Shown: positions 16,467-64,000 of the stretch, piece by piece | Layout: every line of letters begins with the position of its first letter | Numbering within the stretch: the stretch's first letter is position 1 | Source: Cinnamomum chago | Taxonomy: Eukaryota > Streptophyta > Magnoliopsida > Laurales > Lauraceae | Length of the DNA: 64,000 nt | Direction of reading: 5' to 3' | Assembly: GCA_038049695.1 (NCBI GenBank) | Contig: CP142451.1 | Span: 66,717,501-66,781,500 of the forward strand | The notes under the pieces: generated by a model | The model's input: only the letters and a program-made list of their open reading frames with translations | Told to the model about the DNA's origin: nothing | The model's database searches: none | Translations under genes and position numbers: made by a program

Positions 16467-17817
16467 TGTTATGGAGAGTTTTTGATGAAGTGTCCAGCAT
16501 GATTATGTGTTGGAATTACTGTCAACACATTGTCACAAACTTTGCAAACAAGTGTGGTGAAGTACAACAACGCAGCTATGAACCAACTGTTGTTGTGCTT
16601 ATATCTTCACAGCTACCATCTGGACTAAAAAATGGTCAACATGACTTTTGTGCATCAGTGATAGGACTTGATTTTTGGTCTTGGAATCGGGTTGATCTGA
16701 CTTTAGGTTTTAAAGTTATGGCCCGGACAGCGGGACAACTCTATCTCTCTCAGGTTGCTGTTTTTCCTAAACCAGTCAGCTTCAAGGTGTTTTTACTCTA
16801 CCGTCCAGTCAATCTGGGTTAAATCTCAAAACATGAAAGTTGTAGCCCTCTGATATATCTTTCATTTGGCTCAAGAATCATGTCATTTCGAGCTCGGAAG
16901 AGGAAGTTATGAATTTTCTAGTGGAGATATATTTTGCAGTTTTTCTGCACTGCGAGATTAATATATCTTCTGGGTAGGTTGCTGTGGGTCCCATTATGTG
17001 CTGGAAAGTAATAAGCAGATGGCCCATCATATTCATCTGACCCAAATGGTAAGTCAGCCTAGCCAAAACGTGAAATTTCATGTTGGGTTCTTTTGCTTGG
17101 CAAGAAAGCCAAAAAGATATTCCTCCTATCTTTTTGTTGTGAGCAATTTCCTCTATTGGCTAGAGATCCAACTTTTTAGGATCTGAAAATATGAGGTTGG
17201 AAAACGGCATTATTAAAAGAAGAAGATGAGAGATTAAAAATAGCGTGAGGAGAGTTTTTCAAGAGAGATTTAGAGAGAAGAGTGATTGTGAGAAGAAGGT
17301 GCTGCTGGGGTTGCTGTGTTGCACGTTTCTATAGCAAGTGTGGACGAGAATGTGCTCATGAAGATGATGATTCGTCCATAGATAAGTGTCTCTCTGTTTA
17401 TGGCTTAAATTTCAATCTGTAAAGGATTGAGAGAGAGAGAGATTGTAGTGGGGAAGGGCTGTAGAAAGATCTAAACTTTTATTCTGTAAAACATCAAGTG
17501 GGTGCTTGGTGTTGGGGATTTGGTGATCCTGTCTGTGGGTGCAGACATCTTGGAAAGGGAGTAGGTGCTTCCTAGATAGTGGGTGCTATCTGAAACTCAA
17601 GGGTTGGTGCTCTTTGTCGTTGGTGCGACTAAATAGATTCAGACCTATTCCGGATCGGTGTTCGGACAGTCTTTGAACCGTGGACGTAGCCTTTTTTTGG
17701 TGAACCACGTTAAATCCGTTGTCCGTGTGTGTGATTTGATCTTTTGTTGTTGAAATTGGACCTGGTTTTAAGAAATCACTGATTCACCCCCCCTCTCAGT
17801 GATCGCGATATCCAACA
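16467..17817 (+). repeat. 5' LTR of the SIRE-like copia
   Basis: Aligns from its start with 23071 onward. It ends ATCCAACA just before the primer site. Near its end it carries the module GTGGACGTAGCC ... GGTGAACCACGTTAAAT (17680-17716) and a short poly-C tract. The 3' LTR begins 14 bp further out than this copy. Confidence 0.85.
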
Positions 17818-17819
17818 AT

Positions 17820-17832
17820 TGGTATCAGAGCC
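17820..17832 (+). promoter_or_regulatory. tRNA-Met primer binding site
   Basis: TGGTATCAGAGCC lies two bases after the LTR end. It is the standard copia primer site complementary to initiator tRNA-Met. Confidence 0.9.
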
Positions 17833-17871
17833 AGGCTCCCTTGATAAGCTTAACACGCTGAGGGTGATCTC

Positions 17872-22737: not shown

Positions 22738-23043
22738 ACCTTCAAGGAAGAGGGAGGAGGTACTCATGCTTATTTTATTTGCTTCCCTGAACAGTCCCTT
22801 TGGATTTGTTGTCAAAGGGGGAGAACAAGACTCTGAGACCGTCATCAGTGTTTCATTTCGGCCAGAGACTATGAGAATTAGCATGATGACAGGGGGAGTC
22901 TATGATATGGATTATTGAAGAGCTGTCAATATGATGGTAACTGATAGAAGAGCAGCGCTGACATAAAGCCGACGATCAGAAGATTAGAAACTTGTTTGCA
23001 AGTAACATGAAGATCAACATGTTCCATGTGTTGCCAACAATTC

Positions 23044-23056
23044 CAAAGGGGGAGAT
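23044..23056 (+). promoter_or_regulatory. Polypurine tract of the SIRE-like copia
   Basis: CAAAGGGGGAGAT directly precedes the 3' LTR start TGTTATAATTTG. Such a G-rich purine run primes plus-strand DNA synthesis in LTR elements. Confidence 0.85.
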
Positions 23057-23863
23057 TGTTATAATTTGAGATGTTATAGAGAGTTTTTGATGAAGTGTCC
23101 AGCATGATTATGTGTTGGAATTACTGTCAACACATTGTCACAAACTTTGCAAACAAGTGTGGTGAAGTACAACAACGCAACTATGAACCAACTGTTGTTG
23201 TGCTTATATCTTCACAGCTAACATCTGGACTAAAAAGTGGTCAACATGACTTTTGTGCATCAGTGATAGGACTTGATTTTTGGTCTTGGAATCGGGTTGA
23301 TCTGACTTTAGGTTTTAAAGTTATGGCCCGGACAGCGGGACAACTCTATCTCTCTCAGGTTGCTGTTTTTCCTAAACCAGTCAGCTTCAAGGTGTTTTTA
23401 CTCTACCGTCCAGTCAATCTGGGTTAAATCTCAAAACATGAAAGTTGTAGCCCTCTGATATATCTTTCATTTGGCTCAAGAATCATGTCATTTTGAGCTC
23501 GGAAGAGGAAGTTATGAATTTTCTAGTGGAGATATATTTTGCAGTTTTTCTGCACTGCGAGATTAATATATCTTCTGGGTAGGTTGCTGTGGGTCCCATT
23601 ATGTGCTGGAAAGTAATAAGCAGATGGCCCATCATATTCATCTGACCCAAATCGTAAGTCAGCCTAGCCAAAACGTGAAATTTCATGTTGGGTTCTTTTG
23701 CTTGGCAAGAAAGCCAAAAAGATATTCCTCCTATCTTTTTGTTGTGAGCAATTTCCTCTATTGGCTAGAGATCCAACTTTTTAGGATCTGAAAATATGAG
23801 GTTGGAAAACGGCATTATTAAAAGAAGAAGATGAGAGATTAAAAATAGCGTGAGGAGAGTTTT
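23057..23863 (+). repeat. 3' LTR of the SIRE-like copia, cut by an insertion
   Basis: Starts TGTTATAATTTGAG and aligns with 16467-17250. The alignment stops where the TGTTAGAG start of the next SIRE LTR begins at 23864. The missing distal part of the LTR is not seen elsewhere in the window. Confidence 0.85.
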
Positions 23864-24245
23864 GTTAGAGTTTTTGTTTTGTTGCAATTTGATAGGATAC
23901 ATTCACTTTCATAAAGCTTGTCCTCTCATTCATTCAGGGTTTTATTCATAGGATCATCATGCATATTTCTCATTCTTGTTCTTTGTATTTATCTTTTGAT
24001 ATGCATGATTTTCATTTCTGTTTGACTCTTAAGTTGTTGGAGTTTTTGGTTTCAAAAATCATCCAAGCTTTCCAAAGTTTCTAACTTTAAAATCATTATT
24101 TTGATTTGGAGTTTTCATGACTTTTAAAATTCAGTTTCCATCTTCTTTCAGTCATGATTTAATGCTTGGTTAATGTGTCTCAAAGTCCCCTGGAAGACAT
24201 GTTTCTCACACTTTTTCAAAAAACTGGGCATCTCCCAGTGTTGCC

Positions 24246-24381
24246 GGTCGACCGGGCCAAGCTTGCTGGTCGACCGGGATCACTGCAATTTTTAAATGCA
24301 GTTTTGAGCAGAATTTTCCAACGGTAAAAAATATGACCGTTGTGCTTTCCCGGTCGACCGAGGCCTGTGTGCAGGTCGACC
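24246..24381. repeat. GGTCGACC palindrome pairs, SIRE F LTR
   Basis: Four GGTCGACC sites lie at 24246, 24268, 24352 and 24374. Spacing is 22, 84 and 22 bp. The last is about 35 bp upstream of the TATAAAA near 24410. Confidence 0.85.
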
Positions 24382-25072
24382 GAGGACTAGCCGTTGGCAA
24401 CTTTTTCTTTATAAAAAGTGGTTTTTTGGTTGAAGAAAGTTGCTGATCTTGGAGGGACTTTTGAGGCCAATTGTTTGCAACTTCTCAAGAGCATTTTCAA
24501 AGGGATTATGAAGCCATTCCATTAATTCAACCTTTGATCTTCAAATGGGTGTGCTTTCTTTAATCCTAGTCTTTTTAAAATCATTTTTTGTTTCAAATCT
24601 TTGATCTCTTTCTATACATGATTAACAAGTTGCTTTTCTATTAATATGTTGTCTTTCATATCATGCTAAGTACTTTAGAAATCACATGAGCTTTATGGAT
24701 GCAACATTTGGTCTATGTTACACATGATTTTACTTTCTTGTTTCAAAAATCAACTTGTTAGACTTTAGAACATCTTTCTTGAAAACAAGTTATTGTTCAT
24801 TGTTAATCACATGTGTTAGACATATAACTCTTTCTCAAATATATGATTAACATCTTTGCATCATTCAAGTTTTTATCTTTTCAAAGAGAAAGAGTTATTT
24901 CTAGAAAATGCAACATTCATAGACTTTGTCATTGTTATGCATATTTCTAGGAGTTGAGTTTTCACTTTCTAATTAGCCTAATTAGAGGCACTCAATTGCA
25001 CTTCATTGTTCTCTTTATCCATGCATTCTTAGGCATATTTCTTAAGAGAAAAGTTCTTTGTTGTAAAGGTTC

Positions 25073-26788: not shown

Positions 26789-29700
26789 TGTCACGCCCCC
26801 GAACCGAAACCTCGGGGGCGGGAAATGGGATTAGCATAAATATATTTTACTTCTCCCAGGATCCGCGTGTGTGAAGACAACACATTCTGAATATTTTGCG
26901 GAAGCATTTGTGGCGTTACGACCCGAAGTCCGTGGCCATCGGATTCCGCGTCGCACTCAACCTTTAGCACTAAGCTATTATATCAAGAATCATATCAGAC
27001 TGGAGTAACCATCACAATAAATTACAGAGCTGACAGTAACAGGATATTATATTTCCAAATATGTTCAAGTTACAATTATCAATGCACATTAATTAAGAAT
27101 CCCAAGAAAAAGGCTAATAAAAGCCATACAACAAAAGCTATAAACTACTACCCAATTGTGACGTAGCTCCGATGTCAAGCTCAATGTCTACATGACATAG
27201 CCGACAAACCAACCTGCAAGGCATGGCTCCACAGCCAATAAAACACTCAACTCGGGGCGAAGAAATCTGAACCTGAGTACCAAAAGTAGTGGGTCAAACA
27301 CGATGATCTGGCAGGTGGATGAAAAGATCACAAATATACTAAAGAGTAAAACATATGATAAATCATGCTATTCGATCAAATGCTGCATATAATTAAACGG
27401 GTGCAAAAATCGGGGATCTCGGGGAAAGCATGTATTCGTTTCAAGCATGGGCAAAACATGAAGATCTAATAAAACATGTATTCATTTACATCATCTATAA
27501 TCATAGATATTTGACAATCGGGTATTCGTCTAAAACATGTATAAACATAGTGGTTTGACAAAACAAACGTTCATTTGAAACTTAAGTAAAAACAGTATAC
27601 AACAACCCAGGTATTCATAGCAGTCTGGCTAAACCAAAGTCCATTTGGAAGATATGTGAAAATACAAATATTTAACAAAACCGGGTGTTCATTTAAAACC
27701 GGTGTAACCAAAGCAATCTGTCAAAACTAGTGTTCATTTAAAACATATCTCAAAGCAGGGATATTTAACAAATCGGCTATTCATTTGAAACCGGTATAAA
27801 CACAGTGATCTGGCAAAACAAGTATCATTTGAAACATATTTCAAAGCATGAGTATTTAACAATTCGGGTATTCATTTAAAAATAGGTATAAACATAGATA
27901 TCTGACAAACCAAATGTCATTTACAACAAAGCACGGATATTTAACAATTCGGGTATTCTTTTAAAACATGTGTAATCATATAAATCTAGCAAAATCATTG
28001 ATCGTTTGAAACATATGTAAAAGCATGGGTATTTAACGAATCGGGTAATCATTTAAAACATGTGCGGGTACAAAGAACAGAAAACAATATAATACTAACT
28101 GAATTTACATTGGAGAATATTAGCACTTGTTTAAATAACAACTTTCATAAAGGAAACGAATCATTTATCGGAAAGCAAGTAAACAATATAAAACATGTCG
28201 GGTATCCAAGGAAATCGGGAACTGGCAAGATGGCAATCACAAGAAGCTAAGTCCTCTATCACCGAAGTGACAAGAGTATAACGGGACGTTGGTCTCAGTC
28301 ACACAAGGTGAGGAGACTCAACGTAAATCATATATACAATATAAATATACGGGAACGGGACCACGGTAGCGAACCGGGTATCGGGACGGGACCACGGCAA
28401 TAACCGGGTATCGGGATCCAAACTGCAGCTGGCAGGACGGGAGAGGGATTTCCAAGTCGGTGGATCAAACCGACAAGGTATCCAAGCTTAGTGATGCCGA
28501 CTCATAGGTCAAAACCAATCGAGACATATGCAAGTAAATCAAGTACAGTAAATAAACGGGTAAAACGGGGGTGCTCAAGGGCACACTGTCACTTCATATT
28601 GGGCAATACATTTCGGGACAAATAACTGTTACTAGTGTAACTTCAATGCTTTCAGGAAACAAGTCAATCAAGTACAATAAATAAACGGGTAAAACGGGGT
28701 GCTCAAGGGCACACTGTCATATCATGTGATGCAATGCACTTCGGGACAAATGACTGTTACTAGAGTAACTCCAATGCTTTCGGGAAAACAAGTCATGTAA
28801 TGCAAATCTCGGGAAAAGAGGTGAAACAATGAACTATAGCAATTCCGGGAAAATATTGATTTCAAGATCTATATAAGTGAATAGGGGTCCCGTATGTCAA
28901 TTATAGTCATCACTTGGTACTCCTTGAGTTTGTAGACATTCCGGGCTCCTTATGCACTTTTACTACTTTCAAAACTTAAAATGAGCTTATGGGTAGTACT
29001 AGATGTTACAATAGCAAGAATCAAGATTATAAACGGTCCATCCTAGGCATGACATTAATCCGGAAACATCGAGCAACCGATTCAGTCATCGAAAGGAATA
29101 GAATTAGCGATAACCAAGGAAATAGACTTGTGTTTAGATATAAAGAAGATATCGCGTCGTTCCATCCCGTTCAAGATTGAAATGGATTAACTCCGATTCC
29201 ACCGAACCAACCGTGAGGCGTGTCGGCTCAAGACATTATCACACATGGTCCAAACAGTCCAAAGAGGGTAGCCAGGGTCCCACCTAAAACCAAGAATTAG
29301 TGTCTAAATCAACACCATTCTTTCTTTCAGTTCCCTAGTCTTAGAGACCTTATATTAGGGTACAATTGGTCTTAACACTAAGGTATACACCCCTAGGACT
29401 CATAGAAGGCCCAAAGGTTTCCAAAAAAAACAAATATCAAATTTCACTGACCGATCGATCGGTCGAAATTTCTGTACCAGAAATGTACAGGGTCCGATCG
29501 ATCGGCCCAAAAAGCCTTACTGTTAAAAGACAGGCCGATCGATTGGCCTGTAGGTCCGATCGATCGGACCTGGGCGTGCAGCAGGTCCGGGACACTGATT
29601 TTTCTTCCTTTTTCCTTTCCTTTCCAACACTTAAACCACTAGCATTTCTCTTCCATAATCACTTCAAAACCTCATTAAAACTCCAATGAACAACTAAATT

Positions 29701-30971
29701 CGAACACCTCTTTAAACGGGTATCAATTTCAAGTCAATGTAACTTATGAACATAACCATGAATAGCCAATCCAACCTCATTCCTTATAAAAGCATATGAA
29801 CAAACTTGACCAAATAAAATGCATACATTCCCAAGAGTTCCAAGAGACTTAACAAGAGAGAAAAACCCATTCATATGCATTTCGAAATCAATAGAAATGT
29901 GACAAGAAGCATATGTGCAAACATGTATCCAATGATCAAGAACAAGTAATAAAACTTAGGATTTTTTTCATAAAACTTAATAACTTTCAAACCATCCATT
30001 CATCCACTTGCCTTTGACTCTAATCAAGCAAATCAAGCTCCTAATCACCTCTCAAGCTCAAGATCCACAATCTCTACAAAAAACCCCAAAACAAACCCTA
30101 AAATGGGTTAAACAATGCAATGACAATGAAACCTTTCAATAATCAAGGTGGAGCTTCTCTAAGGCTAGAAGATTACAAATCTAGAAGATGAAGAAGAACA
30201 CTTACTTGGAAGGTCCTCTAATGGACAAGGTAAGCTCAAAGGAAGTCTTGTGATGGAGGGTTCTCTTCACAAATGGTACCAATGGAAAGCTTGCAAGATG
30301 AAGAGGAAGAAGGTGGTCTCCATTTCTTGATTGATGAAATATTGGTGTGGCTTGGAGATGAAGAAGCAAGAAGAAGAAGAGAAAACACAAGAGCAAACCC
30401 TAGGCTCAGCTGGAACAATGGTGAAGAAATGAGCAATGAAGGAGATGGGTTCCTCTTATAAACAAGTGAGGTTTGGGTCCCACAACTTAAGAGACTTGGG
30501 TGGCTGAAATCATCTAATTCGGGACCTCGGATGGATTCGACGAAGAAGGAAGAAATGATCGTCGAAATATCTAGTTTCCAAAAAGTGTATGTTTCGCGGG
30601 TTTCGAGAATATCGAGTTTTGGGTACAGATTTGGTGTGAAAAGACTGTTTTGCCCTCAAGGCCAAGAAATCGGGTTTCGGGTTCTCAAATGGATACGGGG
30701 CCAAAAGGAAAGTTGTAGGATTCCTCAAGATGAATGCAACGGGCCAAAAACACAATACGAAACAAATCGGGAAAATCTCACAAGTAAATGCAAAGCCGAA
30801 AAGGGAACCCCCAAAGGGCCCCACAAGCTACCAAAGCACTCAAAAGCCCAAAACTAGAAGAAAAACCATTCTAGCTCACAAACTCAACCCAACAACCACT
30901 AATCCCGCTAAAAGAACTAATCCACAAATAAAACAACACTAATCCAAGAGATTAGGGGTCGGGTTCTCACA
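26789..30971 (-). mobile_element. Tekay-like solo LTR, copy C (4.18 kb)
   Basis: TGTCACGCCCCC ... GGTTCTCACA, flanked by a perfect TSD GGCCC (26784-26788 and 30972-30976). It is the reverse complement relative of copies A and B, with no coding domain. It inserted in the SIRE F element. The palindrome cluster at 29449-29571 uses the same GATCGATC word as copy A. The minus-strand 3' region (27,400-28,050) repeats the TTTAAATGAAyACCCGA word seen in the other copies. Confidence 0.87.
29449..29571. repeat. GATCGATC palindrome cluster, Tekay copy C
   Basis: Four sites: GACCGATCGATCGGTC (29449-29464), CCGATCGATCGG (29494-29505), a near-perfect CAGGCCGATCGATTGGCCTG (29531-29550) and the 20-bp palindrome AGGTCCGATCGATCGGACCT (29552-29571). 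Core starts at 29451, 29494, 29535 and 29556 are 43, 41 and 21 bp apart, close to multiples of 21. Confidence 0.85.
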
Positions 30972-31825: not shown

Positions 31826-32721
31826 GTTTATTGCAAATAACACCACTATATAAACGCAATTGCACTCCATTCTCAGAAATATATTACAAAGAAAATCATA
31901 AATTTCCTAATTACCATAAGTACGCCCCTCTATCAATATCCATGATCAATTGGAATAAATCTGTCCCATCCAATCTTAGATCCACATCTTATCATCCTTG
32001 AGCGCCAATTAATCACAGTGATCATCAGTACCATCCAATGAACTCTTAATCGAGATGGGTGTGCACTTACTAATGACAAATCTATTAATTGGCACAAGAG
32101 GATAATATAGATAGATTTCATCTTGACCATTGAATGTTCCCATAGTCCTACTACCACGTACCCAAGACACCGAGGTGTTGATCTACATTTGGCCTCACTC
32201 ATTGGTGACTCAAAGCAAATGAATAAACAAAAACTTGAGTTCATCAATGTCTCTGGATTAAGAGCCTATTGCTAGGTAATTTTGAGAGCAGACCTTAAAA
32301 TCGAGACAGTATTCCATAAGGTGCTTGTCATGGTCCTTCAATGCATCCAATGTACCAGCACCATGATGCATAATCTTACATTCGGATGATCGCGACAAAT
32401 CACACTATCTCATAGTGATCAAAATAATGCAACCTTATCAGATGAAATGCACAATCTCATCACTGGTTGTGAAGATATTTAAGTATAAGATTTGTGATAC
32501 ATATCTCCCGTATGTGGATCTCATCCATATACATATATCACATCTAATATACTAATGGGACCCGGTTCATCTCATGAACCATCATGTCATATGTATTGGT
32601 CATGTGCATTAAGTAATAAAACATCATTCATCTCATGAAAGGAAAGCATGATTTTATTGATAAATAAAGAAATTAATCAATTTATTACATCATCTGATGG
32701 ATTGAGACCACACAAACTAAC
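31826..32721 (-). other. 3' untranslated region of the Tork element
   Basis: The minus-strand text, including AATACTGTCTCGATTTTAAG and ATAGTGTGATTTGTCGCGA, matches the long conserved 3' region that I recall between RNase H and the 3' LTR in Tork-type copia elements. It is noncoding and AT-rich. Confidence 0.5.
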
Positions 32722-34631
32722 TGTCGCGACCCCGAAACGGATCCCGGGCCCGCGACGGTGAATATTGCGTTGTTTATTGTTTTCCCACAGGTTCCCGCGG
32801 TGAGGATTCCCAAAGACACGCGGAATCTGACTCACACGATCAAGTATGCGGAAGCGTGTAGCAAAGCACATCAAGATGAACACCAATAAAATATTTAAGT
32901 GCCATAACAAGTAATAGCAAGACATAGTATCAAAGAAAGAAGTTAGCATGGCATTCCCAACATAATTTGAGTTATGAAACTACACAAAGAAGTTAAGTTT
33001 TAGTTACAACCCATAAGAGGCCAACAGAGGCCAATACACTTCTCAAAATAATCAAAAGAAACCCCAAGATAAAATGACGAAACTCAAGAAACCTGCCCGA
33101 CGTCTAAATGACATCGTCGGGCTGCCACTCTCTCAGAGGGTTGGCTCACAAGCCTCCTCCTGACGCTCCTCCTCAAAGGTAACGTCTCCTGCACCTGGGT
33201 ACCAACAAACAAGGGTCAAACACAACGGTTTGGCAGGTAATCAATTTAGGCATGAACCTGAACAATAACGTTTTAGGAAGCATATAAGCAAATCCTTGAT
33301 TTGAAATACTATAATGACTGAGATACATTTGCAGAAATATGTAATTGAGCTGAAATACTAAAACAAACTAACATGAGTACATAATATATCATGAATAGTT
33401 ATAATCCACAAGAGCCCATCCATTCTCTATCATTTATATAATGAAAAGAGCAAGCACGCACGATAAGCATGATATACATAATATAATCACGACACGATTT
33501 CCCACAAAGACGGGAATTCCGGCCGTGGAACCGGACACGCACGATGTGTAATAAATACACGACCAGTCTGCAGACAGTCCAAATGTTTAAGGACCCCCAA
33601 ACAGTGGATCAAACTGAAAGGGCAGTCCAAACTCAGTGGTGTTTACTAAATTCATGAATGCACAAACACACGAAATACTATCAAAACTTGTCGAGATAAA
33701 AAGGGGGAAATCACTTATCACAACACGATGAACACGACTAGCAAGGCATACTTAATATGCATAACACGCGTAGGAAGTGATCCCCTTTTTCTTGAATCAA
33801 TTCTTCAAAACAAGCTTATACTTGAAATTCAAAACTAGTACACGATGGTACTTATCGTACCAAAAACGGAATTCGAACATGAAATCTAACAAGCATGTGT
33901 TAAGGCTGCTAATTGACCTTTGTGTAATTGGGACCCCAAATGTCGGAATATACAAGAATTGGTGTCCCCAAAGTTGGGTTGCATTTCGAAGTTCCATTTG
34001 CACAATGTCAAGTCAAAACCCTTAACATAGTCTAGTTTTTAACCTTCGAGAAAATACAAAAATGAAATAATTCTTCTTCCTGAATCTGGCAGGTTCGCTC
34101 GAGCGAACTTTATAAGGTGCTGACACTTCGCTCGAGCGAGACAGTTCGCTCGAGCGAGACAGTGCGCTCATACAGACAACTCTCTGTCTGCGCTCGGAGC
34201 AAACAGAGGCTTGGTCGCTCTAGCGGACCCAAGGGTCGCTCGAGCGGACAAGCTTCTGCCTGTGCTCGCTGAGTGCAGAAAATGCCTTTCTCTCCCACAT
34301 CTTCCACTACATTTTTCTCCTTCTTCTCATCCATCAATCACATACAATCCCTTGAGCCTTCATGCTCACCAAGGGTTCATTTCCATCATTTCACACATCC
34401 AAATCCAATAAAACAAAATCATGCAGCTTGTAAACAATTTATATGCACAATTCTTAAAACACAATGGAATCAAAATACACATGCACATTGAACCTATAAA
34501 GATTACTTGCCTTGCCCAAAGTTAACAATCATCTCAAGCACTTCACTCAAGCTAATCCAACACTACAAGAAAATCCAAGAGAAAATCCACTCAAAACTCA
34601 ATCAAAAATGGAAACAAAGAACCCATTTTAA
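32722..34631 (-). mobile_element. Diverged Tekay-like LTR, copy D (truncated)
   Basis: Starts TGTCGCGACCCCGAAACGG and shares the order of landmarks with copy C: a GGTCAAACAC-type box near 33,212, CGGAAGCGTG and a palindrome cluster. The sequence is strongly diverged, so it is a separate family. The inner side joins abruptly to the SIRE derivative near 34,632, indicating loss of the LTR's remaining part. No TSD can be tested. Confidence 0.55.
34093..34250. repeat. GCTCGAGC palindrome cluster, Tekay copy D
   Basis: The cluster starts with the 16-bp palindrome GTTCGCTCGAGCGAAC (34093-34108). GCTCGAGC then recurs at 34130, 34148 and 34238, with degenerate versions near 34166, 34192 and 34217. 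Spacing is 18-33 bp. It sits in the same LTR region as the GATCGATC cluster of copies A and C, but with a different word. Confidence 0.8.
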
Positions 34632-35606
34632 CAAAAGGTACATATTACTAATCATTTTGATTTCCATTCAAATTAGAATCAATGCATGTTTAAACCTTTG
34701 TATTTCCATTTATGCATGATTTCTAGTTCTTAGAGAGTTGTTTTGCAAACTCATTATCATCTTTGGTATATTAAAAATGGTTTGCAAACTCTAATGCTCA
34801 AATCACATGTGTTCTTAGATCTTACTACTCATACAACTTGTTTTTAGATCATTTCTTTAAGTTGTTTGAATTCTTCATGTGATTAGCATTTACTTTCAAT
34901 CATCATTTTATTAAGCTTTGATTTTAAAATGCATCATGCATTCATTTAAGAGCTTCATAGTAGAAATTGATTGAAGTAAAGCATTCATACACTTGTGCAC
35001 ACACTTTAGCTTGTTTTAAGTGTATGTTTGTAAGTTGTTTTAAACTTTCACATTAGCCTATTTAAGAGGCAACTTCATTGAGCTTAAATTGTATCTCTTG
35101 GAGTGTTCTTTTGTGAAGACACCTTCTTAGAGAAATATTCATTTGTAAAGGTTATTGCTTAGCCTAAGAAAAGCATCTTGTAAGGTTATTGCTTAGCCTA
35201 AGAAAAGCATCTTGTAAGGTTATTGCTTAGCCTAAGAAAAGCATTTTGTAAAGGTTATTGCTTAGCCTAGAAAAGCACATTGAGAGGTTGTTGTTTAGCC
35301 TAGAAAAACAACATTGTAAGGGTTATTGCTTAGCCTAGTAAAAAGTAAAAATAGTGGAAATAAGGTGGGGTGATTAGATCACAAGCCGGTAGTGGATGTA
35401 GGCATTGAGGCCGAACCACTATAAACCTTGGTGTTGTGGTGTTTGCTTTGTGATGATTGTTTTATTAGCTTCCGCATTTTGATTATTTATCATCACATGT
35501 GACTAGTTTTTGTTAAGAAGTTAAAATTGGTCTAAATCGGTCACAATTGTAGCTCACCCTATTCACCCCCCCCCCCCCTCTAGGGTTAGGATCCCAAGGA
35601 CTTTCA
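34632..35606 (+). repeat. 5' LTR of SIRE G (inner part)
   Basis: Nearly identical to 40317-41291. It contains the hairpin array (35142-35340), the GTGGATGTAGGC module (about 35391-35425), a poly-C run and the end GACTTTCA. The outer part, with palindromes and promoter, is missing at the junction with copy D. Confidence 0.88.
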
Positions 35607-39509: not shown

Positions 39510-40029
39510 TGTTAGGGATTTTGTATTTGCAATTTGATGGATGCATTTTCACTTTAGCATCATTTGAATTCTCACACGTGCATTGTTTTAGAAAACCTTG
39601 AAATCTGGTTTTATACATGCATAGCTTTTAAGATTTGCAAAAGTTTTGTTTCATGCATGTGTTGGTTCTAAACTTGGATGCATTGGTTTTAGAATCCAAA
39701 CTCTTTTGAAAACCTAATTCTTTGTGCATTATATTTGGAAAATCATTTTAAGAATTTAGGTTTGAGCTTTGCATACATTCATCATTTTCAGAATCAGTTT
39801 TGTATGCATTCTCATTTGAAAAGAGTTTTATCAAATCAAGCTAGCCTTTGGTTTTAAACTTTTGAATCATTTTAGGCTTTGTGTGTTTCATGTTTTTAAA
39901 CATCTTAGAATGACTTAAAACATTTTATTCTAGCTTGATTTAGTGGCCAAAAAGTTCCCCAAAGAAATACCTTCAAATGTGCAAAAAATGGATTTTTTGG
40001 TCCCAGGGCAGTCACCCGGCAGTGTCGCC

Positions 40030-40157
40030 GGTCGACCGAGACCTGTATCTCGGTCGACCGAAACCACTGCAGGGTGACTGCACCCTGAAACACCAACGGT
40101 CATTTTTTTGCCCGTTGTGTGTTCATGGTCGACCGAGGCCTCTTTGCAGGTCGACTG
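40030..40157. repeat. GGTCGACC palindrome pairs, SIRE G LTR
   Basis: GGTCGACC at 40030, 40052 and 40127 and GGTCGACT at 40149 form two pairs, each 22 bp apart. The last is about 40 bp upstream of CTATAAAG. Confidence 0.85.
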
Positions 40158-40827
40158 AGGACTAGCCGTTGGGCACTTTTTTGCTATAAAGTCCATTCAT
40201 TTCCAACCTTTTTCAAGGCTTGAACCATGAACCTTTGAGACCATTTTGGAGCCAAAGAAAGGGGAAGAAGTTGGAAAGGCTAGAGGGCTATTTGGAAATC
40301 AAATGCATGAGTTTTTAAAAGGTACATATTACTAATCATTTTGATTTCCATTCAAATTAGAATCAATGCATGTTTAAACCTTTGTATTTCCATTTATGCA
40401 TGATTTCTAGTTCTTAGAGAGTTGTTTTGCAAACTCATTATCATCTTTGGTATATTAAAAATGGTTTGCAAACTCTCATGCTCAAATCACATGTGTTCTT
40501 AGACCTTACTACTCATACAACTTGTTTTTAGATCATTTCTTTAAGTTGTTTGAATTCTTCATGTGATTAGCATTTACTTTCAATCATCATTTTATTAAGC
40601 TTTGATTTTAAAATGCATCATGCATTCATTTAAGAGCTTCATAGTAGAAATTGATTGAAGTAAAGCATTCATACACTTGTGCACACACTTTAGCTTGTTT
40701 TAAGTGTATGTTTGTAAGTTGTTTTAAACTTTCACATTAGCCTATTTAAGAGGCAACTTCATTGAGCTTAAATTGTATCTCTTGGAGTGTTCTTTTGTGA
40801 AGACACCTTCTTAGAGAAATATTCATT

Positions 40828-41030
40828 TGTAAAGGTTATTGCTTAGCCTAAGAAAAGCATCTTGTAAGGTTATTGCTTAGCCTAAGAAAAGCATCTTGTA
40901 AGGTTATTGCTTAGCCTAAGAAAAGCATTTTGTAAAGGTTATTGCTTAGCCTAGAAAAGCACATTGAGAGGTTGTTGTTTAGCCTAGAAAAACAACATTG
41001 TAAGGGTTATTGCGAAGCCTAGTAAAAAGT
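40828..41030 (+). repeat. Tandem hairpin array, SIRE G 3' LTR
   Basis: Six units of TAAGGTTATTGCTTAGCCTA type, with TGCTT/AAGCA arms and one GTTGTTGTTT/AAACAAC unit. The array is nearly identical to that of the 5' LTR at 35142-35340. Confidence 0.75.
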
Positions 41031-41291
41031 ATAAATAGTGGAAATCCGGTGGGGTGATTAGATCACAAGCCGGTAGTGGATGTAGGCATTGAGGCCGAAC
41101 CACTATAAACCTTGGTGTTGTGGTGTTTGCTTTGTGATGATTGTTTTATTAGCTTCTGCATTTTGATTGTTTATCATCACATGTGACTAGTTTTTGTTAA
41201 GAAGTTAAAATATTATTCTAAATTGGTCACAATTGTAGCTCACCCTATTCACCCCCCCCCCCCTCTAGGGTTAGGATCCCAAGGACTTTCA

Positions 41292-48377: not shown

Positions 48378-51300
48378 TGTGAGAACCCGACCCCTAATCT
48401 CTTGGATTAGTGTTGTTTTATTTGTGGATTAGTTTCTTTTAGTGGGATTAGTATTTTTTGGGTTGAGTTTGTGAGCTAGAATGGTTTTTCTTCTAGTTTT
48501 GGGCTTTTGAGTGCTTTGGTAGCTTGTGGGGGCCTTTGGAGGTTCCCTTTTCGGCTTTGCATTTACTTGTGAGATTTTCCCGATTTGTTTTGTATTGTGT
48601 TTTTGGCCCGTTGCATTCATCTTGAGGAATCCTACAACTTTCATGTTGATCCCGTATCCATTTGAGAACCCGAAACCCGATTTCTTGGCCTTGAGGGCAA
48701 AACAGTCATTGCACACCAAATCTGTACCCAAAACTTGATATTCCCGAAACCCACGAAACATATACTTTTTGGAAACTAGATATTTCGACGATCATTTCTT
48801 CCTTCTTCGTCGAATCCATCCGAGGTCTCGAATTAGATGATTTCAGCCAAACTAGTCCCTTAAGTTGTGGGACCCAACCTCCTTTGTTAACATAAGAGAA
48901 CCCACCCCCTTCATTGCATCCCATTCTCCATTTTTCCAGCACAGCCAGCTGAACCTAGGGTTCCTTGTGTTTCTCTTCTTCTTCTTGCTTCCCCTTCTCC
49001 AATCCTCACCAATCTTGCACCAAACTTGAAAGGGAGATCATCAACCTCTTCCTCACCTAGCAAGCTTCACTTTGATACTTTTTTAGAAGAATCCATCAAC
49101 TTTGAGACTCCCTTTGAGATATCTCTCTTCATTTGAAGGTCATCTAAGTAAGTGTTCTTCTTCATCTTCTAGATTTGTATTCCTATAGCCTTAGAGTAGC
49201 TCCACCTTTATTATTGAAAGGTTTCATTGTCATTTCATTGTTTGACCCATTTTAGGGTTTGTTTTGGGGGTTTTTTTATTGTAGCTTGGCTTTGAGCAAT
49301 AGAAGTGAATAGAGGCTTGATTTCAGCTAGCTTGGACTTGAGGCAAGTGGATGTTTCGATTTTTATAAGCTTTCAATGATTTTGGAAATTTCCACTCATG
49401 CCTATTTATTACATTAGTTTGAAATAAATGCCCATGATAGAGCTTTGGTAGTGCATTTATGGTAGTGCATTTATGTCTTTTAAAATGTATTGGTGAATGT
49501 CATTTAATTTCTTCTTGCTCATATCAAATGTACCCTATTGTGAAATGGTTTCCTTCTTTCTTTAATTTCATTGGATTTGATGTTGATGGATGAGGTGATG
49601 GAATGAACCCATATTGGAGTTGTGGAGAAGTGTAGATGGATGCATTGGAGGAGCTCTTAGCTCAATTTTATTGTAGGGACTCAGTAGAAGTGGGGAGAAT
49701 GGTTTTAAGGAGGAGAAATGGCTAAAAATCTGATTACAGTGGGTGTTCCCGCACCTGGTGGTCAGCCTGCGGTCACCTGGCGGCTAGCCGCCTGGTGACG
49801 GGCGGCTAACCGCCAGCTAGCCGAAATGTCACGGTGGCTTTTCCAGAGAGCACACTTCTCCTCCTCAAAACTCAGTCAGCACCACGGTTGGCTAGCGGCT
49901 AACCGCCGAACACGTCGGCGGCTACCCGCCAGCTAACCGCACTTGGCGGTCAGCTTTCCAGTAAGCTGCATTTCTGCAGTCCAACCGCAGTCAGCTGGGC
50001 GGTCAGCCAGCGGCTAGCCGCCTGCCCCAGCGGCGGCTAACCGCCAGGTAACCGAAATTCCCCAGATTTCAAAAAAAAAGCCCCAGCGGCGGTTCGTTCG
50101 AGCGTTGAGCTTTGTCGATCAAAGGAGATTCCCTAGGCATTGTATTAGGACATCCGAGAAAGAAACCATATCACAAGGATTTCATTCATAGTTTTGAAAG
50201 GATCGAAGTGTATAAGGAGCCCGGAATGTCCCTAAACTCAAAGAGTACCAAATTGTTATGTGATCGACGTACGGGGTCCCTATCCATTTCAAATAGATAT
50301 TTTCCCAAAATGTCAATTGCTTACAGTACTTTACTGATCCCGAGATTTGCACTACTTGTCTTGTTTTCCCGAAAGCATTGTTATACACTTGAAATTGTTA
50401 CTTGACCCGAAGTGCATTGCACCATTTGATATGATAGTGTGCCCTTGAGCACCCCCGTCTTGCCCGCTTGATTACTTACTTATCCTTGATTTGCTTGCAT
50501 ATGTCTCGATTGTATTTGACCTATGAGTCGGCACCACTAAGCTTGGGTAACCCTGTTGGTCTGATCCACCGACTTGGAGATCCCCCTCTTGTCCCGCCAG
50601 CTGCAGTTTGGATCCCGCCACCCGATTATTACCGTGGTCTTGTCCCGATACCGCAGATTGCTACTGTGGTCCCCGATGCCCGGCTCGCTACCGTGGTCAT
50701 GTATAGTATATGTATATGTATTTATATGAGATCCCCTGTTTCTCCTCACCTCGAGTGACTGAGATCAGGGCCTAGTTATTGCTCTATCACCTTGGTGATA
50801 GAGGACTTAGCTTCGTGTGGTTGCCATCTTGCCAGTTCCCGATTCCTTGGATACCCGACATGTTTTATATTGTTTACTTGCTTTCCGATAAATGATTCGT
50901 TTCCTTTATGAAAGTTGTTATTTAAACAAGTGCTCATATTCTCCAATGTAAATTCAGTTATTATTATATTGTTTTCTGTTCTTTCTACACGCACATGTTT
51001 TAAATGAATGCCGGTTGGGTGGATGCCCATGCTTTTACATATGTTTCAAACAATCCATGATTTTGCTAGATTTACATGATTACACATGTTTTAAAGGAAT
51101 ACCCGAATTGTTAAATATCCGTGCTTTGTTTTAAATGACATTTGGTTTGTCAGATCCCTAGGTTTACCCACGTTTTAAATGAATACCCGAATTGTGAAAT
51201 ATCCATGCTTTGAAATATGTTTTAAATGACACGTGTTTTGTCAGATTCCTATGTTTATACCTGTTTTAAATGATTACCCGAGTTATTTAATATCCATGCC

Positions 51301-52267
51301 TTGAAATATGTTTAAATGAACACTAGTTTTGACAGATTTCTTTGGTTACACCGGTTTTAAATGAACACCCAGTTTGTTAAATATCCGTATTTTCACATAT
51401 GTTTCAAATGGACATTGGTTTTGCCAGACTGCTATGCATACCTGGTTTGTTGTATACTTATGTTTTTACCTAAGTCTCAAATGAACGTTTGTTTTGTCAA
51501 ACCACTATATTTATACATGTTTTAGACGAACACCCGATTGTCAAATATCTATGATTACAGATGATGTAAATGAACACATGTTTTATTAGATATTCATGTT
51601 TTACCCATGCTTGAAACGAATACATGTTTTGCCCGAGATCCACGATTTTGCACCCGTTTAATTATATGCAGCATTTGATCGAATAGCATGATTTATCATA
51701 TGTTTTATTCTTCAGTATATTTATGATCTTTTCATCCACCTGCCAGACCGTCGTGTCTGACCCATTACTTTTGGTACTCAGGTTCAGATTTCTTCGTCCC
51801 GAGATGAGTGCTTGGGTTGGCTGTAGAGCCATGTTTTGCAGGTTGTTTTGTCGGCTATGTCATGTAGACATTGAGCTTGACATCGGAGCTACGTCACATT
51901 TGGGTAGTGGTTAATAGCTTATTGTTGTATGGCTTTTATTAGCCTTTTTCTTGGGGTTCTTAATTAATGTACATTGATAATTGTAACTTGAACATATATG
52001 GGAATGTAATATCCTGTTACTGTCAGTTCTGTAATTTATGGTGATGGTTACTCCAGTCTGATATGATTCTTGATATAATAGCTATGTGCTAAAGGCTGAG
52101 TGTGACGCGGAATCCGATGGCCATGGACTTCAGGTCGCAACGCCACAAATGCTTCCGCAAAATATTCAGAATGTGTTGTCTTCACACACGCGGATCCTGG
52201 GAGAAGTAAAATACATTTATGCTTAATCCCATTCCCGCCCCCGAGGTTCCGGTTCGGGGGCGTGACA
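48378..52267 (+). mobile_element. Tekay-like solo LTR, copy B (3.89 kb)
   Basis: TGTGAGAACCCGACCCC ... GGGGGCGTGACA with TSD ATGAC (48373-48377 and 52268-52272). It aligns with copies A and C at both ends, including GTGTATAAGGAGCCCGGAATG near 50,209 and GACATCGGAGCTACGTCACA near 51,880. The central palindrome cluster has a different word. No coding domain is present. It inserted in the gag of the Ogre-type element. Confidence 0.86.
49779..50085. repeat. GCTAGC palindrome cluster, Tekay copy B
   Basis: GGCGGCTAGCCGCC (49779-49792) and GCGGCTAGCCGC (50010-50021) are perfect palindromes. Between and after them are many imperfect forms (GGCGGCTAACCGCC, CAGCTAGCCG, GGCGGTTAG-like). It occupies the place of the GATCGATC cluster of copies A and C, in a longer array of about 300 bp. 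Confidence 0.8.
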
Positions 52268-58667: not shown

Positions 58668-60668
58668 ATGTCAGGACGAAAGAGGAGTTTGCCATCGGCA
58701 TCTCATTCGAGTCCATCCACTCCAGTGGATGCTTCAGCGTCGTCCAGTGCGGCAGCTCCACCATCTTCAGCACCACCATCAGGAGATACACTGACTGGTA
58801 TAAGTTGATTTAATTAAAACATTTTAATTCTAGCAAATTATTTTATTTCAATTTAATTAGATTATCTCGAATTTAAACAGGTGCTACGAGCACGGGCCCA
58901 TCTTCCAGCATGGGGGAGAGGCCCTGCTAGAGGGATCCGGACATGGAATTCCGGGCATCCCATTGACGTACAGTTTGATGAGTCATATCATCCGGTGGGC
59001 CCTCATGCTCGCCAGCTCATCAGCCAGTTAGGACATATGGTCCGGGATCCATATGTATTTCCTTTGACCACACATGATTGGGACGCATTCCCGGTGGCGA
59101 CGCTAGATCGGACCTGGCAGCAGGTCAAGGTAATAATTTAACATTTCTCCTCAGGATGTGTCAATTTAAACCATAACTTAATGAAAAATAATTTGTCAAT
59201 GAAAAATTATTTGTCCTTTTCAGGACAATCTGAGAGCATGTCCTGAGCTCTTCCGGCCAGTTTGCATGTCTAAGTGCCGGAAGATGTGGAAGGATCATAA
59301 AAATAAAATAAAGACGCGGCACTGGAAGCCTCATCAAGGTGCGCCTGACATACTTCAGCGAGTTCCGACTGGCGTTCTCCCTGATCAGTGGACTCAGCTC
59401 GTCGGGTACTGGTCGAGCGAGGAGGCTCAGGTGAGAAACTTGTACTTTTTTATTTTAATTTTAACATTTTACTAATAACTAACGTAACTAACAAAAATCC
59501 CTACTAATAAATATTGAAAACAGAGAGTGTCTGCTACGAATGCGCAGAACCGCGCATTGCAGGGTCCTGCACATAGGTTGGGGACTCGACACATCACCCA
59601 GGTCCGCCACGAGGTAAAAAGTTATATCGTACATTTAATTTATGTTTTTGTCATTCTGTATGATAGTATACTAGTAATACATTCCTCCACCAACCAGTTG
59701 CGTACCGAGGGTGTTCCGGTTGATAGGATGTCCGTCTGGATGCGTTCTCGAGATCCTCGCCATCCAGAGGTTGCAGCTATCTTCGTAAGTTTTTATATTG
59801 AACTGTTTAAATTATGTTTCTATTTGTATGTATTGTTATGCATGATAATATACTAAATGAATGAACTACGCAGGCCCAGTATCAGTCACGCTTGGAGGAG
59901 TTACCCGAGGAGGAGCGCAGATTGCCATCGCGGAGGGATGCGATATTCCACTCCGTCGTTGGCCGGGATGGGCATGGATACACTCTGACGTATGGGACGA
60001 GCATTCCACGCTCGCACATCACGCGATCGGAGTCATCCGGTGCTAGCTCCTCCCAGGGCATACACTTCCGTACGGATGAGGAGATTCAGGCGATGCTGCA
60101 GTCCATGAGGGCATCGATCAGAGAGGAGGTCAGGGCAGAGGTCAGTGCAGAGATTAGTGCAACGATGAGGGCCGAGTGGAGAGCGGAGATAGCAGAGCTT
60201 GAGAGTCGTCTATCACAGAGTCGCGCCCCGCTTGCTTCAGACCCACCACCCACTACTCAGGTTAGTAAGAAAAAAATTTCGTACATATAAATTGTCAATT
60301 ATGTAATTGATGCATCAATACTTATGTCTTATTTTATTATTTTTTACTGTATAATAAATAATTATAGGCACCAGACGCTGGCAGCGGCCACAGGGCTAGA
60401 CATGACTTCGGTGGAGAGGGCAGTCATGATTTAGCAGGCTCGAGTGATCCTGACCAGGTAAAATTATTTTTTATAATTCAAGATTTCAACATTTAAGTTA
60501 AAAGCTTAACATAAAACTTAGAAAACGAGCCTCCGGGCGCCCAAAACGAGCAAACGGGCTCCGTTGCCAGTGAAACTTGACGGGCACGGGCCCTTAGTCA
60601 TTCATGACAAGCAGGAACTGACGGAACGAGAATCCGACTCCCGGATTGCTCGTAATGTTGAAAAGTAG
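58668..60668 (+). CDS. CACTA accessory protein, Transposase_24-like (8 exons)
   Basis: Predicted exons: 58668-58797, 58909-59129, 59224-59430, 59524-59613, 59698-59784, 59874-60260, 60368-60457 and 60615-60668. All junctions are GT-AG and the frame stays open, giving about 421 residues. The N-terminus MSGRKRSLPSASHSS is basic and serine-rich. The middle (PIDVQFDESYHPVGP, PELFRPVCMSKCRKMWKDHKNK, SAxNAQNRALQGPAHRLGTR, ELPEEERRLPS) matches the plant Transposase_24 family found as the second gene of En/Spm elements. A coiled coil with EEVRAEVSAEISATMRAEW follows. Such proteins probably bind subterminal repeats, like maize TnpA. The first acceptor and the last exon are my least certain choices. 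The last exon (ELTERESDSRIARNVEK, stop) is the first unit of the 178-bp array. Confidence 0.7.
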
Positions 60669-63056
60669 GTTTAAGTTAGAACGTTAAGTTAAAACTTAGA
60701 AAACTAGCTTCCGGGCGCTCAAAATGAGCAAACGGGCTCCGTTGCTTGTAAAACTTGACGGGCACGTGCCCGTAGTTATTCATGACTTGCAGGAACTGAC
60801 GGAACGAGAATCCGACTCCCGGATTGCTCGTAATGTTAAAAAGTAGGTTTAAGTTAGAACGTTAACTTAAAACTTAGAAAACGAGCTTCCGGGCGCTCAA
60901 AACGAGCAAACGGGCTCCGTTGCCTGTAAAACTTGACGGGCACGTGCCCGTAGTTATTCATAACTTGCAGGAACTGTCGGAACGAGAATCCGACTCCCGG
61001 ATTGCTCGTAATGTTGAAAAGTAGGTTTAAGTTAAAACGTTAAGTTAAAACTTAGAAAACGATCCTCCGGGCGTCCAAAACGAGCAAACGGGCTCCGTTG
61101 CCCGTGACACTTGACGGGCACGAGCCTCTAGTCATTCCTGATTTTCAGGAACTGACGGAACGAGAATCCGACTCCCGGATTGCTCGTAATGTTGAAAAGT
61201 AGGTTTAAGTTAAAACGTTAAGTTAAAACTTAGAAAACGAGCCTCCGGGCGCCCAAAACGAGCAAACGGGCTCCGTTGCTCGTAAAACTTGACGGGCACG
61301 AGCCTCTAGTCATTCCTGATTTTCAGGAACTGACGGAACGAGAATCCGACTCCCGGATTGCTCGTAATGTTGAAAAGTAGGTTTAAGTTAAAACGTTAAG
61401 TTAAAACTTAGAAAACGAGCCTCCGGGCGCCCAAAACGAGCAAACGGGCTCCGTTGCCCGTGAAACTTGACGGGCACGAGCCTCTAGTCATTCCTGATTT
61501 TCAGGAACTGACGGAACGAGAATCCGACTCCCGGATTGATCGTACAGTTGAAACGTAGGTTTCAGTTAGAACGTTAACTTAAAACTTAGAAAACAAGCAT
61601 CCGGATGCCCAAAATGAGCAAACGGGGTCCGCTGCTCATGAAACTTGAGGGGCACGGGCTCCTACTCATTCAAGACTTGCAGGAACTGTCGGAACGAGAT
61701 TCCGACTCCCGGTCTTTTCGTACAGTTGAAACGTAGGTTTCAGTTAGAACGTTAACTTAAAACTTAGAAAACGAGCCTCCGGGCGACCAAACTGAGCAAA
61801 CGGTGTCCGTTGCTCGTGGAACTTGACGGGCACGGGCCCCTACTCATTCAAGACTTGTAGGAACTGACGGAACGAGATTCCGACTCCCGGTTTGATCGTA
61901 CAGTTGAAAAGTAGGTTTGAGTTAGAACGTTAACTTAAAACTTAGAAAACGAGCATCCGGACGCCCAAAATGAGCAAACGGGGTCCGTTGCTCGTGAAAC
62001 TTGAGGGGCACGGGCCCCTAGTCATTCAAGACTTGCGGGAACTGACGGAACGAGATTCCGACTCCCGGTTTGATCGTACAGTTGAAATGTAGGTTTAAGT
62101 TAGAACGTTAACTTAAAACTTAGAAAACGAGCATCCGAACGACCAAACTGAGCAAACGGTGTCCGTTGCTAGTGAAACTCGACGGGCATGGGCCCCTAGT
62201 CATTCAAGACTTGCAGGAACTAACGGAACGAGCTTCCGACTCCCAGAATGATCGTACAGTTGAAACGTAGGTTTAAGTTAAAACGTTAACTTAAAACTTA
62301 GAAAACAAGCCTCCGGGCGCCCAGAATGAGCAAACGGGTTCCGTTGCTCGTGAAACTTGACTGGCACGGGCCCCTACTCATTCAAGACTTGTAGGAACTG
62401 ACGGAACGAGATTCCGACTTCCAGAATGATCGTACAGTTGAAACGTAGGTTTAAGTTAGATCCTTAACTTAAAACTTAGAAAACAAGCATCCGAGCGACC
62501 AAAATGAGCAAACGGTGTCCGTTGCTCGTGATACTTGATGGGCACGGGCCCCTAGTCATTCCTGACTTGCAAGAACTGACGGAACGAGATTCCGACTCTC
62601 GGTTTGATCGTACAGTTGAAACGTAGGTTTAAGTTAGAACGTAAACTTAAAACTTAGAAAACGAGCCTCCGGTCGACCAAACTGAGCAAACGGTGTCCGT
62701 TGCTCGTGAAACTTGACGGGCACGGGCCCCTAGTCATTCCTGACTTGCAGGAACTGACGGAACGAGATTCCGACTCCCGGTTTGATCGTACAGTTGAAAA
62801 GTAGGTTTGAGTTAGAACGTTAACTTAAAACTTAGAAAACGAGCATCCGGACGCCCAAAATGAGCAAACGGGGTCTGTTGCTCGTGAAATTTGAGGGGCA
62901 CGGGCCCCTAGTCATTCCTGACTTGGCGGAACTGACGGAACGAGATTCCGACTCCCGGTTTGATCGTACAGTTGAAACGTAGGTTTGAGTTAGAACGTAA
63001 ACTTAAAACTTAGAAAACGAGCATCCGGGTGACCAAACTGAGCAAACGGTGTCCAT
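60494..63056 (+). repeat. 178-bp tandem array in the CACTA element
   Basis: The landmark GAAAAC of CTTAGAAAACGAGC recurs at 60521, 60699, 60877, 61055, 61233, 61411, 61589, 61767, 61945, 62123, 62301, 62479, 62657, 62835 and 63013. Every step is exactly 178 bp, giving about 14.4 units with no net length change. Two sequence types follow one another: early units have GATTGCTCGTAATGTTG, and units from about 61,540 on have GATCGTACAGTTGAAA. Each unit contains GGAACTGACGGAACGAG, CCGTTGC and GACGGGCACG-like words. The array ends where a SIRE-type LTR inserted. Confidence 0.95.
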
Positions 63057-64000
63057 TGTAAGTCCATGGGGATCCGAACCCTAGAGGGGGGTGAATAGGG
63101 TGAGCTTCAATTATGACCAATTTTAATCAATTTTAACTTCTTTAAAACAAACTAGTCACATGTGATGATTTATCATACAAGATGCGGAAGCTAACAAAAG
63201 AATCACCACAAAGCAATCACCATCACACAAGGATTTATAGTGGTTCGGCCTCAATGCCTACATCCACTACCGGCTTGTGATCCAACACCCCACCGGATTT
63301 CCACTATTTATGCTTTTCAATAGGCTAAGCAATAACCTTTACAATATGCTTTCCAAGGCTAAGCAATAACCTTACATTGATGTTTTTCAAGGCTTAACAT
63401 CAACCTATACATTGATGTTTTTCAAGGCTTAACATCAACCTATACAATATGCTTTTATAGGCTAAGCAATAACCTCTTCAACCACAAGGTTGGTTATCTC
63501 TCTAATTTAGTGTCTTTAATACACTTGATGGAAATAGGCGGATATGGAAGTGTAAAACAAATACACACTCACACTATGAATGCAAAGATGAAAGTATATG
63601 AAGTGTGTGTGTGTGGTCCTCAATCATTTAGAAAATGAAAGCTCATAAATGTATGCCTAAGGCTTTTGAAAGTTTTAGCTCAAAAACATTTATGATTGAG
63701 GAAGTAATGCAATCACATGTTAAAAGTAACAACTTGTTAATGATATCAAAGTTACACAAGTTGTATGAAATGGATTAGCTCTAAACATGTGATGCATAGG
63801 GATGTCAATCAAATCAACATGAAGCTCAAAACATAAAAATAGATTTGATTGAAATTAGGGGACAAATCATATGTAATTATAAATACAACTTGAAAGTGAT
63901 TTACCAATCAAAGTAAGGCAAGTTGTGAAACTTTAAAACAATAATACACATATGATTTGTAATGTTGTTGAATCCAAAACATAAGATACATTTGAGAGAG
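63057..64000 (-). mobile_element. SIRE-type LTR, 3' half, runs off the window
   Basis: On the minus strand it ends CCATGGACTTACA, next to the 178-bp array. It has a short C run (TTCACCCCCC), the module GTGGATGTAGGC ... GCCGAACCACTATAAA (about 63238-63275), and a hairpin array at 63310-63485 that includes two GATGTT/AACATC units. The family is related to, but distinct from, the other SIRE LTRs here. Whether it is a solo LTR or part of a longer element cannot be seen. Confidence 0.75.

Follow-up and report, generated by a model that had tools for sequence, protein, structure and literature searches.

How related LTRs of a single family come to carry different palindromic words at one and the same internal position is the question raised by this locus. 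The window, the whole stretch of 64,000 nucleotides that was analysed, is part of one contig, and the genome searched comprises 1.06 Gb in 14 contigs. Three solo LTRs of about 4 kb in the window (A, B and C, Table 1) start with TGTGAGAACC, end with GGGGGCGTGACA and are bordered by 5-bp target duplications. BLAST aligned A with C along the whole length. A and B were aligned at 3438-4425/48378-49364 and then again downstream from about 5390/50192, and the non-aligning part between them, about 0.83-0.96 kb long, holds the palindromes. Since A and B align on both sides of this part, their clusters occupy a common slot, which lies about 1.4 kb into the 4.2 kb LTR of A, with the repeated palindromes in the upper half of the LTR. 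The initial annotation had described one slot with several palindrome words between related flanks, which agrees with these alignments; however, the swapped piece, taken to be the cluster of about 300 bp, is in fact the longer non-aligning part. In B, GGCGGCTAGCCGCC (49779-49792) and GCGGCTAGCCGC (50010-50021) have degenerate copies nearby, and 6 sites lie within 2 mismatches of the 12-mer. For the distant, truncated copy D, the annotated CGCTCGAGCG words are present but their membership in the slot is less secure: D has short collinear matches to B at three places, of which one is clear (downstream of the cluster, E 3e-7) and the one upstream of the D cluster has an E of 0.002; this weakly suggests that D is a member of the slot-bearing LTR family. 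Degenerate 91-92-bp tandem repeats were also observed in the downstream part of the LTRs (6389-6900 in A, 27668-28060 in C and 51088-51448 in B).

Table 1. Positions in the window of the LTR copies, their palindrome clusters and the word pairs of family E.
Feature	Position	Strand	Basis or remark
LTR copy A, solo LTR	3438-7596	+	target duplication AAAAT; BLAST and ends read directly
ATCGAT-class palindromes of A	4824-4900		CGATCGATCG words
GTCGAC-class word pairs, E1 (unrelated copia-type LTR)	7747-7886		centre spacing 22 bp twice
GTCGAC-class word pairs, E2	24244-24382		centre spacing 22 bp twice
LTR copy C, solo LTR	26789-30971	-	target duplication GGGCC; BLAST and ends read directly
ATCGAT-class palindromes of C	29449-29571		CGATCGATCG words
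Copy D, distant truncated LTR-like	32720-34632	-	three short collinear matches to B, one to A
CTCGAG-class palindromes of D	34093-34246		CGCTCGAGCG words
GTCGAC-class words, E3 (LTR 39510-41291)	40029-40160		one 22-bp pair
LTR copy B, solo LTR	48378-52267	+	target duplication ATGAC; BLAST to A and C, ends read directly
GCTAGC cassette of B	49300-50150 (limits approximate)	+	sliding-window matches to GCTAGC LTRs
Palindrome cluster of B	49779-50053		GCGGCTAGCCGC and near copies, pairs 22-23 bp apart

The family is very abundant. A 23-base flank marker downstream of the slot was found at 10,554 places genome-wide (5,362 + 5,192, at most 2 mismatches), while its reversed control was found at 1 + 0 places. 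We sampled 70 slots from 100 places listed among the 10,554, all on contig C1 and with a marker mismatch of 0, and skipped 5 tandem neighbours; A, B and C brought the sample to 73 slots. Palindrome words were present in 72 of the 73, and L097, which had neither a word nor a left-flank match, was dropped from the labelled analyses. By word class the 72 slots divided into ATCGAT (35), GCTAGC (14), CTCGAG (14), GTCGAC (4), TCCGGA (2) and mixed CTCGAG + ATCGAT (3), while one base-shuffle per LTR left no more than 0.04 sites of a given word per LTR in the slot regions. The phenomenon was thus larger than had been claimed, with no fewer than five spellings at the same LTR position. Counted by its dominant word, an LTR held 1-9 sites. 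Left flanks matched in 70 of the 73 extracts, some of the matches being short, and a GAGCT..AGCTC motif preceded the first word by 146-150 bp (once 159) in 18 of the 35 ATCGAT slots and by 134-137 bp in 11 of the 14 GCTAGC slots, and it was found in 0 of the other 23 slots. These distances and the alignment of flanks on both sides led us to reject clusters at differing LTR positions, which had been named as a check on the common slot. Slot-bearing LTRs also followed one another every 5.95-6.04 kb at 36.918-36.985, 32.424-32.442 and 58.988-59.006 Mb of contig C1 (G000:C1), a spacing that suggests tandem arrays of the LTR plus about 2 kb.

The palindromes recurring within slots were CGATCGATCG, CGCTCGAGCG, CGGTCGACCG, CGGCTAGCCG, CGTCCGGACG and CGTTCGAACG; two LTRs each held a single perfect copy of CGTCCGGACG, plus near copies, and CGTTCGAACG was seen in 10 LTRs with one occurrence each. 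All six fit CGNYY|RRNCG, and the only difference among ATCGAT, CTCGAG, GTCGAC and the rare TTCGAA lies at position 3 and the base symmetric to it. The words, which had been called unrelated, are therefore symmetrically differing relatives. Their homogeneity within slots is incomplete: most slots hold a single class, but 3 of the 72 mix CTCGAG with ATCGAT, and in the GCTAGC class the imperfect GCGGCTAACCGC accounts for many of the sites. The symmetric core is mostly 12 bp long: 51 of 79 distinct ATCGAT contexts reach exactly one base past the 10-mer. A CGG-CCG signature occurs in the GTCGAC and GCTAGC words and is absent from the ATCGAT, CTCGAG and TCCGGA words. Genome-wide, exact 12-mers outnumbered their reversed-pattern controls about 550- to 4,000-fold for four words (TCGCTCGAGCGA, 20,150 vs 5; CCGATCGATCGG, 15,936 vs 24; CCGGTCGACCGG, 11,616 vs 21; GCGGCTAGCCGC, 5,366 vs 6), and TCGAGCGCTCGA, a rearranged CpG palindrome made from the same letters, occurred 10 times. 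A chance origin of the words was rejected on these controls and on the rarity of TCGAGCGCTCGA. Elsewhere in the window, a 178-bp tandem repeat (60492-63058, 14.4 copies) has the palindrome ACGGGCACGTGCCCGT in two units, and a CGGTT/AACCG-rich stretch at 14540-15040 contains several CGGTTAACCG and AACCGCGGTT palindromes. The latter was set aside as a slot, being by eye a degenerate CGGTT repeat and not an LTR slot.

The words are often paired. Neighbouring word centres gave 295 intervals of at most 130 bp with near-identical LTRs included, which were reduced to 61 sequence-distinct clusters; 19 of these 61 fell at 20-24 bp, 2 each at 15-19, 25-29, 30-34 and 35-39 bp, and 5 at 40-44 bp. All five main word classes showed the peak at 20-24 bp, as did D and family E, and the spacers differ in sequence while the spacing stays. 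In counts inflated by shared descent, pairs of TCGCTCGAGCGA genome-wide had gaps of 8-12 in 3,797 cases and the thirty gaps of 13-42 together in 2,360, and pairs of CGGTCGACCG had gaps of 10-14 in 15,304 cases and of 15-44 in 785. Beyond the peak, a 10.5-bp rhythm was weak, with p about 0.04 once the 19-25 intervals were removed. Pairs of CCGATCGATCGG, 22 bp apart, were observed to repeat every 2,200 bp at G000:C1:3784444, 3786644 and 3788844, perhaps as part of another pair-carrying element.

Family E is an LTR family of copia type, with the primer site ATTGGTATCAGAG after the LTR and a copia gag downstream of one copy; copy A sits inserted in one of its LTRs. Its word CGGTCGACCG is also found in 4 of the 72 slots of the A/B/C family, and by direct reading its words stand just upstream of a TATA-like box. 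A scan behind the slot of the A/B/C family gave nothing consistent, and a TATA consensus was present behind the final word of just 4 of 72 slots. The window also holds a copia element at 16465-23863, with terminal repeats (16465-17258 and 23070-23863) that are 99.2% alike and an open frame of 1484 residues that encodes integrase and reverse transcriptase domains.

Outside the words, the outer arms of the pairs are mutually complementary: 25 sequence-distinct modules had a mean of 6.04 matches in 12, compared with 3.07 (SD 0.34) for exchanged arms, and 0 of 5000 shuffles were as high. The complementary arms are of unlike sequence (TTTCTGGACCGT/ACTGTCCAGGAA, AGAAATGACTGC/GCAGTCATTCTG and TTCTGCCTCCTG/CAGGAGACAGAG; GCAGAAGCTTGT/CCAAGCCTCTGT in D; CTGGCAGTGTCG/GAACACTGTCGG in E1). 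However, the complementarity is not general. It amounts to at most 4 matches in 8 of the 25 modules, and the arms of four ATCGAT modules average 3.5 of 12, apart from a 3-base match shifted by one. Slots of 20 LTRs folded with a median z of -6.5 and -7.7 on the two strands, against 0.19 and -0.31 for the controls, and the weakest-folding slot, L090, reached -2.25 and -0.49. A wobble bias was not found among the arm mismatches (13 G-T and 16 A-C in the 25 modules, 102 and 127 over redundant modules), nor was there an excess of G-T over A-C mismatches in the words.

Conservation follows the same anatomy. Between LTR pairs less than 93% alike in the three larger classes, words agreed at 0.90-0.95, a figure possibly biased upward by picking sites with at most 1 mismatch in at least one row, whereas outer arms agreed at 0.79-0.88, spacers at 0.73-0.78 and neighbouring sequence at 0.63-0.84; in the GTCGAC class (four slots) no excess of word conservation was seen (words 0.883, spacers 0.893). 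The comparisons had 12, 10, 25 and 4 rows. Median CpG observed/expected ratios were 1.38 in slots, 0.21 in left flanks and 0.88 in right flanks, so that the slot has CpG-island character; the left flanks of the sampled family are strongly depleted in CpG compared with the right. In methylated DNA, CpG-rich words are expected to decay fastest. That the words outlast their spacers although they are rich in CpG points to selection or conversion.

The comparison of flanks with words indicates how the swap came about. Separate trees of aligned LTRs, as had been proposed for a check, required 12 word changes on the left flanks (49 of 58 rows with a left match of at least 330 bp, near-identical rows dropped) and 16 on the right flanks (60 of 72 rows, near-identical rows dropped). 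Copy B is itself a mosaic. In windows 48978-49218 its closest relatives are ATCGAT LTRs (94-97%), a GCTAGC LTR tying in the first window only; in windows 49338-50058 GCTAGC LTRs match at 90-98%, ATCGAT LTRs not at all and CTCGAG LTRs at 78-87% in three windows only; in windows 50178-50298 the CTCGAG LTR L007 is closest at 96%, with all others at most 88%. In AU tests, for which the B groups were picked after the trees were seen, two placements of B were rejected, one with L007 for the left flank (p 1.5e-4) and one, for the right flank, with the LTRs related to it on the left (p 6e-36). A single GCTAGC clade was also rejected on either side (p 5e-4 and 3e-44). Furthermore, four kinds of cassette follow a single left-flank segment whose copies are 91-94% alike over 230-490 bp: GCTAGC (L020, L024, L036), ATCGAT (L012, L081), CTCGAG + ATCGAT (L009) and TCCGGA (L019). 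The discordance between flanks and words, the mosaic B and this left segment together indicate that the swap is an exchange of cassettes; on these comparisons the swapped block, about 0.8 kb long, appears to move by recombination between LTR backbones. Within a class, the same spacers recur in many copies, and a spelling therefore looks like a cassette lineage and not like many fresh inventions. Words are also duplicated locally inside a cassette and vary in number, but this does not explain the swaps. The initial annotation had proposed rapid turnover by amplification of a new dyad; as the main mode this failed, since the words travel with the cassette in the flank trees and the sliding comparison. 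Point-mutation intergrading of words within a lineage, also named there as a check, was rejected as the main mode, as the swaps are block exchanges even though the spellings are related.

The anatomy of the slot is well supported within the sample, and from it we infer a function. We give roughly an even chance to the slot being an array that is recognised by a DNA-binding protein of two-fold symmetry and is exchanged in cassettes. Its unit would be a dyad of about 12 bp with the core given above, often paired, and two protein dimers, or one tetramer, would be seated on the same DNA face, because centres 20-24 bp apart are about two helix turns apart. The spelling of the dyad would set the specificity class, and cassettes of different classes would be traded between LTR backbones by recombination, most likely through template switching between co-packaged RNAs or conversion between copies. 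The array might then serve the element in transcription or in resistance to silencing. Such a protein would account for the symmetric spelling of words present in nearly every slot, the preferred spacing (19 of 61 distinct intervals, the 22 bp of family E and the genome-wide pair gaps), the CpG-bearing half-sites in a CpG-rich slot, the greater conservation of words than of spacers in three classes, the lack of a G-T excess in the arms and the discordance of words and flanks, with B as a mosaic. It would also account for the reuse of CGGTCGACCG in family E, in four slots and in a Vitis Sirevirus (PMC2829016). However, a 12-bp site needs no arms that are complementary far past its core, as RNA or DNA hairpins would, and the scarcity of a TATA consensus behind the slot, unlike in family E, the weak 10.5-bp rhythm, the GTCGAC slots without word excess and the inflation of the genome-wide spacing counts by descent also speak against it.

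The arms and the fold are what RNA or single-strand structure, the main rival, accounts for. Each pair would form one hairpin (arm, word, loop of about 10, word, arm) used in packaging, dimerization or RNA processing, and as only self-complementarity would count, the spelling may drift symmetrically, in keeping with the changes at position 3 of the words. We regard this as unlikely, though still to be reckoned with, as G-T mismatches do not exceed A-C mismatches in arms or words, an identical word recurs in an LTR family unrelated to this one, CG stands at both ends of all six words although base pairing by itself does not require it, and the ATCGAT arms are complementary only to about the level expected from the shuffles. 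An inverted duplication would also leave complementary arms on either side of a palindrome, and word number varies within cassettes; it is conceivable, but distinctly improbable, that template switching produced inverted duplications and tandem words that hitch-hike without function on successful LTR lineages. Words that outlast their spacers in three classes, a pair spacing that is the same with different spacers and in an unrelated family, and the rarity of control palindromes of the same letters are difficult to reconcile with such a by-product. We consider it more doubtful still that, in line with the escape from silencing brought up in the initial annotation, the hairpin words are siRNA sources in an arms race in which new words are favoured by escaping existing siRNAs. 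Palindrome-rich LTR regions of maize Sireviruses are described as highly variable sRNA hot spots (PMC5311732, PMC10760457), but the words here are few and conserved within classes, and the observed swaps exchange cassettes that already exist. Beyond the recognition array of a single family, it is a tentative and somewhat improbable extension that several unrelated LTR families of the genome share a palindrome code made up of a few such dyads in 22-bp pairs, in which each spelling would have its own dimeric factor, encoded by host or element, and a trade of cassettes would switch the factor, making the spelling a swappable tag for activation or anti-silencing.

Arrays resembling the repeated motifs (RM) described for Sireviruses in a study of Ty1/copia elements (PMC2829016, as far as its consulted sections go) are thus found in a very abundant LTR family of 4 kb. 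The arrays here differ from that description in their five or more spellings in one slot, their exchange as blocks, the pair geometry and the complementary outer arms. A testable geometry is supplied: the dyads measure about 12 bp, and the two members of a pair lie about 22 bp from each other. The left flanks that are 91-94% alike and carry four kinds of cassette are natural swap experiments, which opens the readers of LTR palindromes to binding and reporter tests.

Dimerization initiation palindromes of retroviruses are self-complementary words at a fixed place, whose spelling may vary between strains; however, each is a single palindrome in a leader loop, whereas several paired dyads of about 12 bp stand in the LTR here. 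In maize, Sirevirus palindromes reportedly go with sRNA hot spots (as Bousios is said to have described in 2016). Dense short noncoding motifs that differ between relatives and change fast by repeat formation are known from VANC/VANDAL anti-silencing, but in the consulted sections these belong to a DNA transposon, are non-palindromic and of one orientation, and have a reader protein encoded by the element (PMC5735166), while the motifs here are dyads. For the LTRs of HERVH a mosaic cis-regulatory evolution is reported, although this is a vertebrate endogenous retrovirus and the consulted part of the report does not mention palindrome cassettes (PMC8912925). For palindrome cassettes in non-Sirevirus plant LTRs, the titles and opening abstract lines of the open-access literature yielded no paper under limited search terms, and the consulted parts of PMC6911290, PMC11656987 and PMC11963269 do not treat them.

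The nearest relatives of the palindromes of the A/B/C family are the Sirevirus repeated motifs, and the initial statement that no named system of this kind exists therefore holds only in part. In the sections of PMC2829016 consulted, these are palindromes of Ty1/copia elements clustered in the 5' half of the LTR; each element has a word of its own, present eight or more times and a short distance upstream of a TATA promoter, and the motifs have CpG-island character and mostly a CGG-CCG signature. The word of a Vitis Sirevirus (Table 3 of that study) is CGGTCGACCG, which also occurs here in identical form, and AATCCGGCTWRCCGGATT, the word from Citrus, is similar to the GCTAGC class (PMC2829016). 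However, there one word belongs to one element, whereas here at least five act as exchangeable cassettes in one LTR family, the A/B/C LTRs are about 4 kb long and mostly lack a TATA consensus after the slot, and pair spacing and complementary outer arms are not mentioned in the RM section of that paper. In maize Sireviruses the palindrome clusters likewise lie in a variable, sRNA-rich LTR region, and among the structured motifs of Helitrons the maize palindrome word is the most frequent one (PMC10760457), which gives a precedent for a word common to unrelated element types; the exchange of cassettes between subfamilies and the 22-bp pairs seen here do not appear in the consulted parts of PMC5311732 and PMC10760457. 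If the A/B/C element proves to be a Sirevirus, it would be a further case of Sirevirus repeated motifs, with cassette exchange added.
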